From: Planctomycetota bacterium | Lineage (GTDB): Bacteria > Planctomycetota > Planctomycetia > Planctomycetales > Planctomycetaceae | Length of the DNA: 32,287 nucleotides | Assembly: GCA_013151585.1 (NCBI GenBank) | Contig: JAADHY010000029.1 | Location: 1 to 32,287, forward strand | Direction: 5' to 3' | Shown here: piece by piece, positions 22,992-32,287 of the stretch | Numbering within the stretch: position 1 is the first letter of the stretch | How the letters are laid out: each line of letters starts with the position of its first letter | Position numbers and translations under genes: made by a program | Notes under the pieces: model-generated | What the model saw: the letters and a program-made list of their open reading frames with translations, nothing else | What the model was told of the DNA's origin: nothing | Database searches by the model: none

Positions 22992-25706
22992 GTGGAACGA
23001 CCTCGGTCTCGTGTTGTCGCTGCGCTATTGCGCGCAGGATGCGCCTGGCTGGCGCTGTGCTTCGCGATCGGTGAGGCTGGGACGGCCGACGAGCCGTCTG
23101 GCGGAAAAGCCGAATATCGCGCTTATCAGCTCCATCACAAGCCGGTCACCCAAGTCCGGCAAATGCTCGAACAAATCCTGGCCGACGCGCAGCCGAAACC
23201 GCACCTCGTGGCCGACGGCCAAGAGAATGTCTTGTTGGTGCGGGGCTCGGAGAGCGTGCATCGGCTGGTCCAGCAGGTTATCGAATCGGTGGACAGACCG
23301 ACGCCCTCGCCGCAAAAGTTGAAATCCACCCGTCGGGTCGTTCGCGTGTATAACTGTCCGGCCGACCGCCTTCGGTTTACCGCCGAAGCCCTGCAAAAGG
23401 AGTTTCCCGAGGCTCGAATCGCGGTCGTGGCGGATGTCTCGCAGATCGTGGTTTTGGCTGAGCCGGCAGTCCAGGAAGCGATTGCCCGCCACTTGTCCGA
23501 GCCAGCTCCTCGGCCCGTCCATCGTTCTTCCCAGGTCTCGCCGTCGGACGTCCCTGAACCGCAAGTCGAGCGAGTCGTGCTGTTGCGCAACGCGACGTTG
23601 GATCGTGTCGAACACCTGCTGACTCAATTGCTGAGTCCGCGTTTGGCCCCTTTGGGCAATCAGCCGGGGCGTTTTCAGTTTGTCAATAGCAAAGGCCGAC
23701 AAGCGCGTTTGACGCTGGATGCCACGCATCGAGCCGTGGAAATCGCGGGCGACCAAAGTGTGGTCACGCAATTCGAGCGTTTGGTCCGGCTGATCGACCA
23801 GCCCGAGTCAGGACCGGGATTCAAAGTCCGCATCCTGCCGGTCCGACGGGCCGATCCTGCGAAGATTCGGCAGGCGGTGGAAGCCTATCGCGGACGCTTG
23901 CCGGAGCGAACGACGAGGCCCGAAGGCGGTCGCGGTGGAGCCGGACGGTCGTCGCTGGAGCCCGGACGCGTCGGTCGCCGCCCGCCGCAAGAGCAGAGCC
24001 GATTGGGGCGGGGCGAGGCCGAAGGGGGAATCCAACAAGCCTCTTTCCAGCAGGGTCCGGCCGGCAAGGCAGCCGCGACCGCCGAGGAAGGGCAGCCGGA
24101 GGAAGAAGAACCGGCCATGCGCGAGCCCGGCTCGATGGTCGACATCGAGACCTTGCCTGATTTGGATGTGATCATCTTGCGCGGCCGGGAAGCCGACGTC
24201 GAAGAGCTGACGCGAATCATTGAGGAAATCGAGCGACTGAGCGTCGAAAAGCAGCCGACTATTGACATCGTCTACTTGAAACACATCAAGGGCGAGGCGC
24301 TGATGCAAGTACTGCAGCAGGTCCAACAGGCTTGGCTGGGCGGCCGACAGGGACGAGTCAGTGTGCTACCGCTGGTCAAGCCGAACGCCCTCTTGCTCAT
24401 CGGCTGGGGCGAGGCGATGGAAGCCATCAAAACGCTCATCCAAAAGTTGGACCAGCCCGTTCAGGCCTCGACGCAATTCAGAGTCTTTCGGCTGAAGCAC
24501 GCTCCGGTCAGTACGGTGCAGTCGACCGTGCAGCAGTTCTTTTCGAACCGAGGCGGTTTGGGACCTCAAGTTCGCGTGACGGCCGACGCGCGGACGAACT
24601 CGCTGGTGGTGGAAGCTGCGCCACGCGATATGGAAGAAGTGGCCTTGCTGATCCAGCAGCTCGATACGGATCAGTCGGAAGCGGTCATGCAAACGCGCAT
24701 TTTCCATTTGAAGAATACTCTGGCGGCGAACACCGCTCAGACGCTGCTCACCGCCATCCAAGCGGCGGCCGGTGGCGCGGCCGGACAAAAATCTTCTGTG
24801 CTCGAATTGCTCACGATCGACGCCAAGGGCCGGAAACGGATCAAATCCGGTTTGCTGGCAGACGTGCGCATCACGCCCGACGTCCGGGCCAATTCGCTCA
24901 TCGTATTCGCTCCGGCCCAGAGCATGGGCTTGATCGAAGCCTTGATTCATGAGCTGGACGACAAGCCGGCGGCGGTAGCCCAAATCAAAGTGTTTCGAAT
25001 CTTGAACGGCGACGCGACGTCACTGGTTCGCATGCTGCAAACGTTGCTGCCCACTCAGGCCGGAGCGACCGCCGTGCCGCAGCTCCCCACGGCGGAGGGA
25101 GAAGAGGGGTTGGTGCCGATCCGGTTCGCGGTTGACATCCGGACGAACAGCATCATCGCCACAGGTTCCGCCGGTGATCTGCAAATCATCGAAGCCTTGC
25201 TGTTGCGGCTGGACGAAAAAGACGTCCAGGAACGAAAAAACACGGTCTACCGTCTGAAAAACTCACCCGCCAACGACGTGGCGCGGGCCTTGAGCGAGTT
25301 CCTGCGGAGCGAGCGGGCCATCCTGCAGGCGGCCCCGGGAGCGGAGAGTCCGTATCTGCAGATCGAGCGGGAAGTGATTGTGGTTTCCGAGCCCGTCACC
25401 AACTCGCTCATCATCAGTGCCACAGCGAAGTACTACGACCGCATCATAGAGCTGATTGAGCAGCTCGATGCGCAGCCGCCGCAAGTGCTCATCCAAGTGC
25501 TGATCGCCGAGGTCGTGCTGGGAGACGCCGACGAGTTCGGCATCGAGGCTGGCATTCAAGATTCGGTCCTGTTCAATCGAAGCATACTTGACAACATTCA
25601 GACGATCACCCGGGTCAGTCGCGGCCGGCCAGATCAGCAACGAAGAGATTATCTCGGTCGAGGGCGTTCCCGGCTTCAATTTCATCAGCCAGCCGCTCGG
25701 CAATAA
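22992..25706 (+). CDS. Secretin (GspD-like), N-terminal repeat part; frameshifted relative to its C-terminal part
   Basis: GTG start, signal-peptide-like N-terminus, repeated N1-like units (e.g. FRVFRLKHAPVSTVQSTVQQFF...VTADARTNSLVVEAAPRDMEEVALLIQQLD); reaches PPQVLIQVLIAEVVLGDADEFGIEAG, then leaves the conserved frame. Confidence 0.85.
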   Translation: MERPRSRVVAALLRAGCAWLALCFAIGEAGTADEPSGGKAEYRAYQLHHKPVTQVRQMLEQILADAQPKPHLVADGQENVLLVRGSESVHRLVQQVIESVDRPTPSPQKLKSTRRVVRVYNCPADRLRFTAEALQKEFPEARIAVVADVSQIVVLAEPAVQEAIARHLSEPAPRPVHRSSQVSPSDVPEPQVERVVLLRNATLDRVEHLLTQLLSPRLAPLGNQPGRFQFVNSKGRQARLTLDATHRAVEIAGDQSVVTQFERLVRLIDQPESGPGFKVRILPVRRADPAKIRQAVEAYRGRLPERTTRPEGGRGGAGRSSLEPGRVGRRPPQEQSRLGRGEAEGGIQQASFQQGPAGKAAATAEEGQPEEEEPAMREPGSMVDIETLPDLDVIILRGREADVEELTRIIEEIERLSVEKQPTIDIVYLKHIKGEALMQVLQQVQQAWLGGRQGRVSVLPLVKPNALLLIGWGEAMEAIKTLIQKLDQPVQASTQFRVFRLKHAPVSTVQSTVQQFFSNRGGLGPQVRVTADARTNSLVVEAAPRDMEEVALLIQQLDTDQSEAVMQTRIFHLKNTLAANTAQTLLTAIQAAAGGAAGQKSSVLELLTIDAKGRKRIKSGLLADVRITPDVRANSLIVFAPAQSMGLIEALIHELDDKPAAVAQIKVFRILNGDATSLVRMLQTLLPTQAGATAVPQLPTAEGEEGLVPIRFAVDIRTNSIIATGSAGDLQIIEALLLRLDEKDVQERKNTVYRLKNSPANDVARALSEFLRSERAILQAAPGAESPYLQIEREVIVVSEPVTNSLIISATAKYYDRIIELIEQLDAQPPQVLIQVLIAEVVLGDADEFGIEAGIQDSVLFNRSILDNIQTITRVSRGRPDQQRRDYLGRGRSRLQFHQPAARQ

Positions 25707-27099
25707 CATCCAACAGAGCCCCGGGAGCTTGGGCGGTCAGGCGGCCTCCTATCTCGGCGTGGGCCGACTGAACAGCGAGCTCGGTTACGGCGGCCTGGTC
25801 CTTTCGCTCAGCAACGAGAGCGTGAGCGTGCTGATTCGTGCATTGCAAGATCGGCGACGAATTGAGATTCTCAGCCGTCCCCAAATCATGACGCTCGACA
25901 ACCAGCCGGCGTTCATCCAAGTGGGGGAACGAGTGCCCCGAGTCGTGGGCTCGCAGGTGAATCAGGTCGGTCAGGTGAACACCGTCACGCTCGAAAACGT
26001 CGGGTTGATTCTCGGCGTTACTCCGCGGATCAGCCCCGATGGGATGGTGGTGATGGAGATCGATGCCGAGAAATCCGACCTGGGCACCGAAGCCGAAGGA
26101 ATTCCGATTTCGATTTCCGCGACGGGCGAAGTCATCCGCTCCCCTCGCATCAATCTGACTATGGCCCAAACCACCGTTAGTGCGATGGACGGCCAAACGA
26201 TCGTGCTCGGAGGTCTCATCACAAAACGCAAATCGAGCATCTCGCGACGCGTACCTTGGCTGTCCGATTTGCCGGTGCTGGGCTCGTTGTTCCAGTACAA
26301 CAGCGAAATCAACGAACGAGCCGAACTGTTGATCTTCCTGACGCCTCACGTGATTCGGTCGAAGGAAGATGCCGAGAAGATGAAGCAACTGGAGGCGGCT
26401 CGCATGAGCTGGTGTGCGGCGGACGTCCACGAGCTAACCGGGTCCGGTGAGTTCTGTCGGACGGGAACATGTCCGTACTGCGACGGCGACATCCCCGTGA
26501 TTTATCCCGATTTCGACCCCCGCGGCAGTTTGCCTCCCGGTTCTCCTTCCCCTCCTCCCGCTCCTCTGCCGCTCGACCAGAATCTGCCCCCGGGCAGCGC
26601 CATCCAACAACAGTCCGCTCCGCATCCGTTCCCCGCTGCGGGACCTCCAGCCCCGTTCGACGCGGGTCACAGCGTGGTTCCATCGTCCGGCCCGATTCTT
26701 TCGCCGCGGCGCGACAACGGGCTCAGCGGGCTGACGCCTCCGATCAAGCCGACCAGCAACGAGACGGATCATCGCAAGAACCCTAAGAAGAAAAAGCGAG
26801 TGATGCCGGCTCTGTTCAAACTGCCTTGGAAACGGGAACGTCGGAAAGCCGCCGCGCCAGAGGCTGCTGGACGGGCGCAGACAGATCGAGGCGATCGTGC
26901 AGACGGACATCCGAAAGACGCCGCGGCGAGCACTTCCGCTCCCGAGGAACCAACAAAAAAGCCAGCCTCGCGTGACGCGGCGAATCCAGCAGACGGGCAG
27001 TTGGAATCGCAGTTTCAGTGGCGTTCCCAAGACCTGAGTGGGCCGCTGCAGCCAGCCGATCTCTCCCCTGCCGACCTGAAACCGGTTCCCAGCGAGTAA
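25588..27099 (+). CDS. Secretin pore domain plus Pro-rich C-terminal tail (probably the same gene as 22992..25706)
   Basis: LSNESVSVLIRALQDRRRIEILSRPQIMTLDNQPAFIQVGERVPRVVG...VVMEIDAEKSDLG...TTVSAMDGQTIVLGGLITKRKS...RRVPWLSDLPVLGSLFQYNSEINERAELLIFLTPHVI. TTG at 25588 is unlikely to be a true start. Confidence 0.85.
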   Translation: MTTFRRSPGSVAAGQISNEEIISVEGVPGFNFISQPLGNNIQQSPGSLGGQAASYLGVGRLNSELGYGGLVLSLSNESVSVLIRALQDRRRIEILSRPQIMTLDNQPAFIQVGERVPRVVGSQVNQVGQVNTVTLENVGLILGVTPRISPDGMVVMEIDAEKSDLGTEAEGIPISISATGEVIRSPRINLTMAQTTVSAMDGQTIVLGGLITKRKSSISRRVPWLSDLPVLGSLFQYNSEINERAELLIFLTPHVIRSKEDAEKMKQLEAARMSWCAADVHELTGSGEFCRTGTCPYCDGDIPVIYPDFDPRGSLPPGSPSPPPAPLPLDQNLPPGSAIQQQSAPHPFPAAGPPAPFDAGHSVVPSSGPILSPRRDNGLSGLTPPIKPTSNETDHRKNPKKKKRVMPALFKLPWKRERRKAAAPEAAGRAQTDRGDRADGHPKDAAASTSAPEEPTKKPASRDAANPADGQLESQFQWRSQDLSGPLQPADLSPADLKPVPSE

Positions 27100-27271: not shown

Positions 27272-28726
27272 GTGAAAACGCAAACGGATTGGCCTCGCCG
27301 AATGGGGATGCTCCTGATCCTCGGGCTGACTTGTACGGCCACGGGGTGCGCTACGCTCTTGGAGCAGCCCATCGTACAAACAAAACCGAAACCGAAGGTC
27401 CCCACCAAAGCGACCGCGATTTGGAGCAACACAGTCTTGTACCAGCCGGGCAAGAAGCCCGTTCGAGGGTTCGGTGGTCGAGTCTTGTTCTTCGACGATC
27501 GCGCGAAGGAGCCGATTGTCGTCGACGGCACGGTGACGATCTATGCGTTCGATAATTCCGATCCCAACGTCGATCCGGCCGTCCCGGTTCGGAAGTATGT
27601 TTTCACTCCCGAGCAACTGCCGCTCCACCACAGCGAATCTGAGCTGGGGCACGCGTACGATTTCTGGATTCCCTGGGACGAAGTGGGCGGACCGTCCAAA
27701 AAGATCAGCTTGCTGCTGCGTTTCGACGCACGGACCGGAGAAACCTTGTTGACCGACACCTCGCAACACTATTTGCCGGGCGATTCTGACGCAGACCCCA
27801 AATCCATGCAGCACGCTCGGCGGCAGTCGTCGGAAAGCAATTTCCAGCCGACAGTCCAGCCGGCAGCCTTCGCAGAAGCTGCCTCCCCAGGCGAAGCCAC
27901 TCAGCTCGGTCGTGTTCAGCCTACGTCCCGAGAGCAGCCCGCCGGTCCCAGTCCCCTCAACCGACCGCCAATCGGTTCGGCCCGGCAAAAGGATTCTGTA
28001 TCCGGGTCGCCTCGGAGGGCCTTCCCTCAACAGCCATCTCCACGTTCTCCGCTGACGCCGGACACGCCCACAACCGCCGCAGGGCCGGAGCCGCACCGGA
28101 GAGACGGTCTACAAGTCTCCACGGTCACGATCGATGTTCCGCCGGGATTTGTCGAGCGGGTTCTGGTCGGGCCGGCGGGCCAAGCCGACGGAAAAGCGTC
28201 GCGACCGGGGCTTCCCAAACGCAAGCCGGCCGTCGCTCCAGGCGAAAGCCGCTCCGTTCCGACCACCACGCGGCTCTTACCAAAGCAGCCCCTGTTGAAT
28301 CAGACCGACGTCCCGTCGAGTCCGACCACCGATCAAACCCCTCGCTGGCTGGGCTCGTCTGGGGGAGGCTGGCCAAATGGAACCGGGACGACGTCCTCTG
28401 CACCGGAAAAACGGGACACCGCCCCCGTCGGTGCCGTTTCTCAAGCAATGAAAACGTCGCGGACGACAGCCGTCACTGACGGACGGTACTCTGCCGCATC
28501 TTCTGCCGAGAATCCTCTCTCGGTAGCTCCGTGGCCACCCGAAGCTCATTTCGTACAGAAACGATTCCCGGCTCGAACAACACGACCAAGGCTGCCAATC
28601 GCCGATCGTGTTCGGAGAGAACCGTACCGCGCAATGTGGCCGTCTGCCCTTCCACCGACACCTCGATTCGGCCCAAACGCTCCAGGGCCTGGAATGCTCC
28701 CCTATACGCCGTCAGGTCGCGGGTAG
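27272..28726 (+). CDS. Lipoprotein-like protein with Pro/Ser/Thr-rich C-terminus, function unknown
   Basis: GTG start; MGMLLILGLTCTATGCATLLEQP hydrophobic segment then Cys (imperfect lipobox); structured-looking part up to about residue 165, low complexity afterwards. Confidence 0.65.
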   Translation: MKTQTDWPRRMGMLLILGLTCTATGCATLLEQPIVQTKPKPKVPTKATAIWSNTVLYQPGKKPVRGFGGRVLFFDDRAKEPIVVDGTVTIYAFDNSDPNVDPAVPVRKYVFTPEQLPLHHSESELGHAYDFWIPWDEVGGPSKKISLLLRFDARTGETLLTDTSQHYLPGDSDADPKSMQHARRQSSESNFQPTVQPAAFAEAASPGEATQLGRVQPTSREQPAGPSPLNRPPIGSARQKDSVSGSPRRAFPQQPSPRSPLTPDTPTTAAGPEPHRRDGLQVSTVTIDVPPGFVERVLVGPAGQADGKASRPGLPKRKPAVAPGESRSVPTTTRLLPKQPLLNQTDVPSSPTTDQTPRWLGSSGGGWPNGTGTTSSAPEKRDTAPVGAVSQAMKTSRTTAVTDGRYSAASSAENPLSVAPWPPEAHFVQKRFPARTTRPRLPIADRVRREPYRAMWPSALPPTPRFGPNAPGPGMLPYTPSGRG

Positions 28727-29159
28727 CCGATCCGCCCGAATTCTGGGGGATCGAAAAGGCGATGCGTAAGCGGGGTTCGTACAATCCGGTCGTCCGCGGC
28801 GCTCCGCGTGGACGATTCACGCTGGACGTTTCCCCAATCTCGACCCGCAGGCCAGCCGTCGGCGACGTCACCCGGCCGCTGGTCTGAGCTTGGACGGCAC
28901 CGACAAAGGATCGCACATCTCGCGAGTCGCTTCCGACGAAGTCGCTGCGCCGCCGGTTGCTCCGCAGGAACCGCTCTGCGCCAGACAAAGTGCCAACGTC
29001 ACTAGCCGCAGACGGGGAGGTGGAGATTCCGGGACGGGTTCGCCGGCTCAGCGGCTGTCCCAAGGTTCGAGCCCCAAACAATTGCGCCGAAACCGGTTCG
29101 GCGGCCACAGTCAAGAGCAGAATCGCCGACATCGACCAGATCAAATTGCGGACCGCCAT
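28473..29159 (-). CDS. Secreted BON-domain protein
   Basis: Signal peptide MAVRNLIWSMSAILLLTVAAEPVSA; BON-like C-terminus RIEVSVEGQTATLRGTVLSEHDRRLAALVVLFEPGIVSVRNELRV. Confidence 0.7.
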   Translation of the reverse strand: MAVRNLIWSMSAILLLTVAAEPVSAQLFGARTLGQPLSRRTRPGISTSPSAASDVGTLSGAERFLRSNRRRSDFVGSDSRDVRSFVGAVQAQTSGRVTSPTAGLRVEIGETSSVNRPRGAPRTTGLYEPRLRIAFSIPQNSGGSATRDLTAYRGAFQALERLGRIEVSVEGQTATLRGTVLSEHDRRLAALVVLFEPGIVSVRNELRVATELPREDSRQKMRQSTVRQ

Positions 29160-29813
29160 TGCTATTGTCCTCCGCTTTCGCCCACGCCCGCCGGCGCGAT
29201 CGGACGACTTTTCAACGAGAATCTCCTCGCCTGCCTATTATATCGTCCTTCGCAACGAAAAACCGCAACTGGGGCACCCGGCGCCAGAGACCAGATCGGT
29301 TTTTCGACTCGCAAACCGATTTTTCAAAAAACTTCTTGCGAATTCGTTTCGGGCGGTCATACTGAATGCGTCAACAGATCTGACGCTCAGAAACTCTCTC
29401 AAAGCCGACTTGTGCGGACGTCATGCGAGCGCGAAGTTTCCGCGGAGCCTGACGGGACTCGGTCTGGAACGGTTCGGCTGGAGCCTCGTCCGGCCAGTTT
29501 TGAGGGAGTTGCTCAGCAGGCTGCGGTCGGACCGCTAGCGGTCGGGATGCGGTCGTCTTTTCCCGAGGCGGGCGGTAGCGGGCCCGCCGCAGTCTTGGGG
29601 TTACGTCGGGGTGAGTCCGTCGGAGGAGCTTGTGGGCCCGTTTTGAGGGGAATTGTCGGCAACGCCCGCCCGAAGTGGATTTATCGAGATGCCTTGCAAA
29701 GCCCGATTCACTCGGCCAGCCGTTCCTCGATGAGCCCCCTTTTCGCTCCGGATGACGGACAGAGGCTCTGGCGCACGGCGGTTTTCACGGGAGTACGAGG
29801 AGGGAGAGCGGTC

Positions 29814-32287
29814 ATGTTGATCGTGGGGTCCGTACGCAATCGGTCGTTTGTCTTGTCGGGAATCGCCCTTTTGTTGGGCGCCGCCGTTTCGTTGGGGGTG
29901 AGCCGTCTGGAGGAAACGCCGCCGCCCGAGAATCTGCTCCCCGCGGACGCGGTCGTCTTGTGTCAATGGGATGGATTTACCGCTCACGAGGCGGCTTGGC
30001 GACAGACGGCTGCGTATGAAGCACTGGTCGAAAGCGGGTGCGCCGACTTCGCCAAGAAGCTGGCCGAAGGACTATTGGCGCAGGCTCCGCCCGACGTTGC
30101 CACGCTGCTGGAAGACGCTGTCGGGTCGGTGATAAGTAAAGGGGTTTCGTTCGCGATCGCTCTGAATGGAGGCCAGGGACCGCCCACGCCCTTTGCTGTT
30201 CTGGTTCTCCACCGATCCTCTCGGCTGGCGGCGGAGTTGCAGCGATTGGTCCGCCAGGCCGCTGGACCGCGAGTCGAATGGCAGGAGAAAAAGATCAACG
30301 GCCGTCAGGTCGTCTGGGCGGCTCTGCCGCGGACGCCGAACGTCGAAGCAGGCTGGTGGTCCGAGGGAGAGCACTTGGTCATCGCCATCGGCATTCAAGC
30401 CATCGAAAGGGCCACGTCCGTCGCGGCCGGAACGACTCCGAACGTTACTCACACCCAACTTTGGAAGACGTATCACGCCCGGAAACGGGCCGGCGTCGAG
30501 CGGACCTGGTTCGGCTGGTTCGATTTCCGCCGACTGCGCGAAGCCGTTCAGGATATTCCGGTTCCCGCTCGCCGGGGCGACGGGCAGCCGATTCGTGTTG
30601 GCCAAATCATCGAAGCTTTCGGGCTGGACCGTGTCGGCACGATCGTCAGTTGGAGCGGCTTGGAGGGCCGGGCCATCCGGTCGGAAACGTTTGTGGAAGC
30701 ACCGGCACCGCGAACCGGTCTGCTGGCGCTCGCCGACCAGAAGCCCATGACATTGAAAGACCTGCCGCCGTTGCCCGCCGGGTCGCCCAGTTTCGCTGCT
30801 TGCCGATTCGATGCGAGTCGAGCTTACGACGAGGTGCTTCGTTCAGTCCGCCGCTTCCTGGAGTTAGCGCCTGCCGACGCGCAGCGAGAGGCTGAAGCGC
30901 TCATCGCAAGCCTTTCCGACAAGCTCGGTTTTGATCCGAAGGCCGATTTGTGCGACTCGCTAGGCGACGTTTTCTGTCTGTACGCGGACCCGAACCAAGG
31001 GGGGCTGTTTCCCGGATTCGGGCTTGTCGTCAAGGTGGATGATTCCGAACGACTGCGATCGACCGTCGACCTGTTGCTGCGGCGGCTGCAGGACGTGGCC
31101 GGCCGAGACGTGACGATTCAACGCACGACGAAAGGCGGACGGGAGCTGATCGGCTTCACGTTCCGCCAAGGGGTCCCGCTAGGCGCATTTGCCATCGGAC
31201 GCCGCTGGGCGTGCGTGGCGTTAAGTACGCAATCCGTCGAGAGTTTCTTCCTGCGTGTCGACGGCAAATTGGACTCGTGGCGACCATCGGCCGAATACGA
31301 AGAGGTACTGAACGCGGTTCCGAAACAGTTCACCCAGATCGCTCTCGGTGATCCCCGTCCCGGCTATAGAACTCTGTTGGGGGCTGCGCCTTTGCTGTTT
31401 TCAATCGCTCAGGCAGCACTGGATCGTGTGGGTCGCAGGACTATCGGGCCCATTGAGCTACCGGTGACGGCTGCCGACATCCCACCTGCCGAGTTGTTCG
31501 TTCGGCCGCTCTTTCCCAACGTGGCAGTGTGGACGGTCGAGGAGGACGGTTTCCGCGGCATCGCGCGGTACTCGCTGCCCGGGGCGCCGATCTTTGGTCA
31601 AATCGGCGCAGGAAGCACAGCGGCGACGACGGGAGTACTCGTCGCATTGTTACTTCCGGCCGTGCAGCAAGCTCGGGAGGCCGCCCGACGGACTCGGTCG
31701 CGCAACAATTTGAAGCAGCTCGGCTTGGCCTTGCACAACTATCACGACGCCTATGGCCGCTTCCCCGTCGGTACTCACCCGAATCCGAAGCTCCCGCCCG
31801 AGAAGCGACTGAGCTGGATGGCGGATGTTTTGCCGTTTGTCGAGCAAGCTCCTTTGTACGAACAGATCGACTTCGAAAAACCGTGGGACGACCCAGCGAA
31901 TCGCCGGGCTCTTTCGCGGCAAGTCTCTGTCTTTGTGAATCCCGGTCAGCGCGCTGGGCGGGGTCGGCACGGCGTCACTCATTACGTCGGGTTGGCCGGG
32001 CTCGGCCGCGATGCGCCCATGTTGCCGGTGACCAGTCGACGGGCGGGCGTGTTCGGGTACGACCGAATAGTGCGGATTCGGGATATCCGAGACGGAAGCT
32101 CCAACACGATGGCGGTTTCCGAAGCCAACAAGAAGCTCGGGCCCTGGGGAGCCGGCGGACCTTCCACGATTCGCGCATTGACCACCCGGCCTTGTATCAA
32201 CGGACCGGACGGAATCGGCGGGCCATTTCGCGGTGGCGTCAGCGTACTGTTCGTCGACGGCTCCGTCCGTTTCGTCAGCGAATCGAT
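29814..32287 (+). CDS. Large protein with C-terminal DUF1559-type domain, 3' end outside window
   Basis: My own reading; not in the ORF track because it has no stop in the window. ATG at 29814 after AGGAGGGAG; open to the end. LLLPAVQQAREAARRTRSRNNLKQLGLALHNYHDAYGRFPVG, RDGSSNTMAVSEA and GGPFRGGVSVLFVDGSVRFVSES are DUF1559 hallmarks. Confidence 0.85.
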   Translation, partial: MLIVGSVRNRSFVLSGIALLLGAAVSLGVSRLEETPPPENLLPADAVVLCQWDGFTAHEAAWRQTAAYEALVESGCADFAKKLAEGLLAQAPPDVATLLEDAVGSVISKGVSFAIALNGGQGPPTPFAVLVLHRSSRLAAELQRLVRQAAGPRVEWQEKKINGRQVVWAALPRTPNVEAGWWSEGEHLVIAIGIQAIERATSVAAGTTPNVTHTQLWKTYHARKRAGVERTWFGWFDFRRLREAVQDIPVPARRGDGQPIRVGQIIEAFGLDRVGTIVSWSGLEGRAIRSETFVEAPAPRTGLLALADQKPMTLKDLPPLPAGSPSFAACRFDASRAYDEVLRSVRRFLELAPADAQREAEALIASLSDKLGFDPKADLCDSLGDVFCLYADPNQGGLFPGFGLVVKVDDSERLRSTVDLLLRRLQDVAGRDVTIQRTTKGGRELIGFTFRQGVPLGAFAIGRRWACVALSTQSVESFFLRVDGKLDSWRPSAEYEEVLNAVPKQFTQIALGDPRPGYRTLLGAAPLLFSIAQAALDRVGRRTIGPIELPVTAADIPPAELFVRPLFPNVAVWTVEEDGFRGIARYSLPGAPIFGQIGAGSTAATTGVLVALLLPAVQQAREAARRTRSRNNLKQLGLALHNYHDAYGRFPVGTHPNPKLPPEKRLSWMADVLPFVEQAPLYEQIDFEKPWDDPANRRALSRQVSVFVNPGQRAGRGRHGVTHYVGLAGLGRDAPMLPVTSRRAGVFGYDRIVRIRDIRDGSSNTMAVSEANKKLGPWGAGGPSTIRALTTRPCINGPDGIGGPFRGGVSVLFVDGSVRFVSES

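Follow-up and report, generated by a model that had tools for sequence, protein, structure and literature searches.

In the solved secretins, N1-like domains form rings, and the N1-N3 domains of PulD are stacked in this way. The N0 domain of PulD, at the base of the secretin, binds the inner-membrane protein PulC (PMC6882859). In Thermus thermophilus the PilQ secretin has six rings (N0-N5) and a length of 350 Å, reaching across most of that bacterium's wide periplasm (PMC5745081); it is the deepest such channel that we found characterized. The periplasm of planctomycetes varies, and may be much enlarged (PMC5394234). How might one machine span periplasms of differing, or changing, depth? This is an open question, on which the planctomycete domain arrays described here bear. 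In the open-licence literature (that is, without subscription papers and preprints), we found no published secretin with more than six N rings, no split secretin, and no description of the planctomycete system presented here.

The DNA considered here (the window) is a stretch of 32,287 nucleotides from a planctomycete genome bin of 783 contigs that is 80% complete. It carries a secretin gene, which we call A. Like GspD, PulD, XcpQ and ExeD, A has a C-terminal secretin domain and domains of the N1-N3 type, and GspE, GspF, GspG and GspK are neighbours of its relatives. Unlike them, it has nine N1-like domains instead of three, and lacks N0; that domain, together with tens of units more, belongs to a second polypeptide, which we call B. 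The N0 of B is homologous to that of GspD, and in this it resembles the PulD N0 that contacts PulC HR; in contrast to PulD, N0 and pore are on different chains, and a GspC partner was not identified. A second point of comparison is T. thermophilus PilQ, which also has extra N rings and also comes from a bacterium with a wide periplasm. However, the six rings of PilQ are on one polypeptide, whereas the window's genome has nine units in A plus at least 39 in B, and single-chain relatives have 28-50, and the neighbours of the planctomycete relatives are T2SS genes, not T4P genes.

The secretin gene of the window

The gene is divided between two reading frames, and is made up as follows.

22992-25706, + strand: N-terminal part of A, 904 aa; signal peptide and nine N1-like units (ORF, PF03958, unit profile, AlphaFold2)
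23118-23300, + strand: N1-like unit 1; 44 bits; modelled as beta-alpha-beta-beta-alpha, model residues 8-65
23334-23501, + strand: N1-like unit 2 (divergent); 15.5 bits; model residues 81-134
23571-23804, + strand: N1-like unit 3 (divergent, with an extra hairpin); 23.5 bits; model residues 156-233
23829-24236, + strand: N1-like unit 4 (split); 18.8 bits; model residues 242-266 and 349-384, with pLDDT<50 between
24267-24458, + strand: N1-like unit 5; 42.9 bits; model residues 388-451
24480-24668, + strand: N1-like unit 6; 74.1 bits; model residues 461-522
24696-24962, + strand: N1-like unit 7 (with a hairpin insert); 51.7 bits; model residues 531-622
24987-25217, + strand: N1-like unit 8; 53.0 bits; model residues 629-712
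25242-25475, + strand: N1-like unit 9, adjoining the secretin domain (the N3 position in GspD); 56.1 bits; model residues 713-791
25600-25660, + strand: frameshift region between the two parts of A, with homology on both sides
25588-27099, + strand: C-terminal part of A, in the following frame, with PF00263 (25840-26358) and, after it, a Pro-rich tail
27272-28726, + strand: predicted lipoprotein (LP), with the lipobox ..TATGC.., directly downstream of A

The first-pass annotation of this DNA had proposed nine tandem N1-like units, naming a Secretin_N (PF03958) search and a structural model as checks and four or fewer modelled ring domains as the result that would speak against it. All nine motifs that it quoted are in the translation of 22992-25706. 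In that ORF, PF03958 was found by Pfam at E=3.7e-73, with seven stretches individually significant, and a unit profile iterated over relatives picked out exactly nine non-overlapping units at thresholds of 0.01, 0.001 and 1e-4 (the weakest having E=4e-5) and seven at 1e-6. On shuffled or reversed sequence of six times the amount, the same profile made only four matches, and it made none on the ORFs of L047-L050, further secretin contigs of the genome; trained without the window, it recognized eight units in the window ORF, missing unit 3. In solved GspDs, a comparable profile recognizes between one and three such stretches. An AlphaFold2 model of residues 36-874, built with 43 orthologues, contains nine consecutive beta-alpha-beta-beta-alpha units (mean pLDDT 74), and the solved folds closest to it are those of the T2SS secretins GspD, ExeD, XcpQ and PulD. 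The count of nine is thus upheld by both profile and model, with the amendment that unit 4 is not continuous: some 77 disordered residues (model residues 267-344, about 23895-24128) are inserted in it. The annotation's yardstick of about three N domains in a canonical GspD was apt for N1-N3 but omitted the canonical N0. In the window protein, N0 is absent, the best score being 4.9 bits, from a position inside an N unit.

The pore domain (PF00263, E=1.3e-46 by Pfam) is in the second frame, and with PF03958 in the first it bears out the annotation's identification of a secretin. Orthologues of A are single uninterrupted ORFs of 1,100-1,500 aa. The frameshift is likely to be a sequencing or assembly error, which is the simplest reading because two more T2SS genes in the same bin (L046 and, on L175, the part of B that contains N0) are also frame-broken, but it is possible that the gene has really been disrupted. 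Each part was analysed by itself, with the sequence left as it stands.

For both parts, the best family is GspD (TIGR02517 of NCBIfam): singly, the frameshift-separated halves score 222 and 177 bits against an equivalog cutoff of 351 bits. The PilQ model scores lower than the GspD model for both, and the SctC models of the T3SS also score below GspD for the window gene. Within the window, the T2SS core genes (GspE, GspF, GspG and GspK) are not linked to A; such linkage is present in the relatives L052 (A beside GspF, GspG, a GspH-like protein and GspK) and L054 (A near GspE and GspF), and for B, including that of the window's own genome. By sequence, fold and the neighbours of its relatives, the window gene is a T2SS secretin of the GspD type whose chain does not include N0; it would work as a GspD with a partner, and is not a textbook GspD.

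Among named genomes, the closest relatives of the pore domain (75% identity at best) are in bins of Pirellulales, Thermoguttaceae and Planctomycetaceae and in Planctomycetes bacterium CA13, in agreement with the planctomycete origin that had been suggested from the sequence, and the window organism is probably a planctomycete of the Pirellulales type. The scan of named genomes was made with a secretin-domain alignment, a broad N0 alignment having contained no stretch that was conserved enough. There is strong conservation of A across 44 sequences, and intact orthologues with eight or nine units occur in dozens of other genomes. The 67 complete relatives of A have six to nine N units (nine in 28 of them, eight in 26), and none of the 67 has N0. 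An unrooted tree of secretin domains sets apart three groups: A proteins, which lack N0; short, N0-bearing secretins; and fused giants. As the tree has no root, we do not state whether fusion or fission came first.

Proteins with N0 and giant arrays

Where, then, is the N0 domain to be found? The search for relatives of the window protein also returned open frames of 2,000-3,300 aa, which were of two kinds: B, and single-chain giants that include the pore. B consists of a signal peptide, N0 and 18-68 N1-like units, after which come a low-complexity region, a further pair of units and a basic tail; no secretin domain (PF00263) was found in it. The units are regularly spaced (about 66 residues), and the N0 matches the N0-N1 region of solved XcpQ with E=1e-8. 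Complete examples are listed below.

L203: 5,352 aa, 68 units
L204: 4,168 aa, 50 units, Pfam alone passing 9
L178: 3,259 aa, 35 units
L210, from strain CA13 (in which A is L118): 2,794 aa, 32 units, on an 8.6 Mb contig
L041: 31 units, from a one-contig genome

In the window genome, B is on different contigs from A, and is itself in two pieces: N0 and eight units are on contig C59 (L175: 8158-10907), together with GspF and GspE, and 39 further units and the tail are on contig C70 (L037: 450-9107). Pfam alone passes 16 units in this B. No exact overlap joining C59 to C70 was found, and 8 + 39 units is a sum of lower confidence, the join being unproven. The eight units were modelled as eight beta-alpha-beta-beta-alpha domains (pLDDT 88.9) with predicted linkers of 1-9 residues, and their nearest folds in the PDB are secretin N domains. 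With pTM values of 0.34-0.35 for this stretch and for the window protein, inter-domain placement is not fixed by the models. Unit counts in the giants should be read with the caution that the family-trained profile may overcount weak units (Pfam passes fewer, for example seven in A), and that most giants are from metagenome bins (L041, L177, L215 and L216 are from one-contig genomes).

Non-overlapping segments of B were used for alignment. Mean identity between units of the window genome's B is 49% at a lag of four, versus 26-34% at lags of one to three (26% at lag two); likewise, the array of L112 shows 52% at four, with some units up to 100% identical. This peak at lag four shows that the array grows by the duplication of small blocks of domains.

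The single-chain giants combine all these elements. In L038 and L039, a polypeptide of 3,270 aa comprises N0, 29 units and the pore (Pfam alone finding 25 Secretin_N stretches), and in L214-L221, from outside the window's class, chains of 3,100-5,000 aa join N0 and 28-50 units to the secretin domain. Those from one-contig genomes are of 4,600-4,900 aa with about 49 units; in L215 and L216, Pfam alone recognizes 30 and 35 Secretin_N stretches, respectively, as well as PF00263.

Several features connect A with B. Their parts are complementary, B having N0 and no pore, and A a pore and no N0. When fused L039 is taken as reference, B aligns up to about residue 2153 and a close orthologue of A (L051) from 2233 to the end; the match of the window protein starts earlier than that of L051, at 2028, and for this protein the seam is not sharp. 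The gene order A-LP-B-GspE is found at L096, L097, L104 and L142, and B also adjoins GspE and/or GspF at L177, L179, L188 and L210, as does the N-terminal part of the window genome's B (L175). A gene with N0 is present in 47 of 48 genomes that have an N0-less A, which is supportive rather than conclusive because some of these genes are paralogous secretins or short B-like proteins. Judging by the sequences, A and B are probably the two halves of a secretin that is one giant polypeptide in other planctomycetes (a probability that we attach to this idea jointly with the stacked arrangement considered in the next section).

Short B-like proteins (N0 plus five or six N units, without a pore) head GspE-GspF operons at L181, L183, L184 and L185. 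In these genomes the secretin keeps its own N0.

A proposed split secretin and alternatives to it

In our preferred reading, which we consider more likely than not, the planctomycete T2SS has a split, elongated secretin, with A in the outer membrane, B below it, and coaxial N rings extending across a deep periplasm. A would be a GspD-type secretin with nine N1-like ring domains and no N0. B, a second exported protein encoded with GspE and GspF, would provide N0 and tens of N1-like domains in trans, lying under A and reaching the inner-membrane platform with its N0. Stacked coaxially, the N domains of the two proteins would make a very long channel around the pseudopilus, and this channel would cross the deep planctomycete periplasm. 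What the sequences and models establish is the domain content, the predicted fold, the existence of split and fused forms, their collinearity, the linkage of the genes and the duplication of blocks; the binding of A to B, the formation of rings by the added domains, the length of the channel and its match to the envelope are inferred.

An unusually deep channel is what one would naturally expect of nine N1-like domains, as the first-pass annotation had recognized; its nine-domain secretin holds good for A, but would be part only of a system to which B adds at least 39 domains and N0. If ring length is extrapolated from PilQ, at roughly 3-4 nm each, nine rings would occupy about 30 nm and 50 rings about 150-200 nm; 50-77 rings would come to 150-300 nm, exceeding any secretin that we found described. 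The predicted linkers of 1-9 residues would fit close stacking. More speculatively, Planctomycetota may have conduits of 30 to >70 stacked N rings, of some 100-250 nm, made either of one chain of 3,000-5,000 residues or of A and B in two parts; their length would evolve by block duplication to match a periplasm that is variable and unusually deep, and they are perhaps part of the crateriform structures that connect the membranes. This is possible, but we hold it only tentatively, and for crateriform structures we offer no more than a suggestion. If the rings do stack, the secretion channels of planctomycetes would seem to be longer, by a wide margin, than any others known, a suggestion that comes from sequences rather than from microscopy. 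A phylum with 9 to about 68 copies of the ring domain, in some cases on a second protein, amounts to a natural experiment in machine length, and A and B are concrete candidates for a membrane-linking structure in organisms whose cell plan has long been debated. The idea is testable, since there are giant forms in one-contig genomes and a split form in the named strain CA13.

Some of the evidence is awkward for stacked rings. A range of 5-68 units between species is hard to square with a fixed depth of periplasm, the low pTM values leave the relative placing of the domains unfixed, and in the window genome A is frameshifted, A and B are on different contigs, and B is split over two that do not overlap. 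A flexible tether would need no stacking at all. In the main rival reading, to which we allot a minor share of the probability, B acts as a long ruler or semi-rigid tether, with its N0 bound to the T2SS platform of the inner membrane. The last units of B would be paired with A's N domains, which would hold the machine together as the periplasm widens or narrows, and only the last three to six domains of A would form a conventional vestibule. This accords with the highly variable number of units, the separation of B from the pore in many lineages, the basic, low-complexity tail of B, inter-domain orientations that AlphaFold2 does not fix, and a periplasm that varies and can enlarge greatly (PMC5394234). 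On the other hand, other lineages carry the same arrays in the pore polypeptide, hence on each secretin subunit, and linkers of merely 1-9 residues are like those of stacked N domains and unlike a floppy string. It also counts against a tether that N1-like domains are rings in solved secretins. Variation in unit number does not discriminate, fitting an envelope-adapted length and a loosely constrained tether alike.

Further alternatives concern what the secretin is for and which parts of it are real. The suggestion that it works for a type IV pilus, or for crateriform-pit fibres, instead of type 2 protein secretion draws on the description of the pits as outer-membrane complexes touching the inner membrane, with fibres of 12 nm or 6 nm (PMC5394234); we think it unlikely, as the neighbours of relatives include T2SS-type pseudopilins (GspG and GspK), the GspD model outscores the PilQ model for both halves of A, and nothing here ties the A and B genes to pits. 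It is somewhat harder still to believe that A alone is a nine-ring secretin, with B a paralogous adaptor (a substrate receptor or surface anchor) that forms no part of the channel wall. A does contain nine domains of its own, and short B-like proteins do occur beside secretins that keep N0 (L181, L183-L185, L056 and L182), but N0 is missing from A in all 67 complete cases and present in B, the fused forms put the whole length of B N-terminal to A in one chain, and there is the linkage to GspE and GspF. Least credible, and in our view very improbable, is an artefact, whether a standard secretin over-read as nine units or a dead, frameshifted pseudogene in a poor bin. The broken frames of A, L046 and L175 and the fragmentary, incomplete genome might be taken to favour it; the intact orthologues with eight or nine units, the conservation of A and the nine modelled folds oppose it, and for the unit count they refute over-reading.

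The lipoprotein gene and other secretins

LP follows A in 69 of the 70 loci with enough flanking sequence. It has no family match in Pfam, and a pilotin-like role would be a guess. The place that B occupies after LP in other genomes is taken in the window by an ORF (28890-32285) that runs off the contig; it was considered as a candidate for B and rejected, as N units are absent from it and its domain is DUF1559 (PF07596).

The window genome has a second secretin gene (L046, G000:C427), of the short, N0-bearing type and broken over three reading frames; thus, two related T2SS-like systems may coexist in this organism. In another family of the class, fused secretins of 2,200-2,330 aa (L043, L044 and L045) have 9-11 N units, with long inserts between the units that in L044 are Gly-rich.
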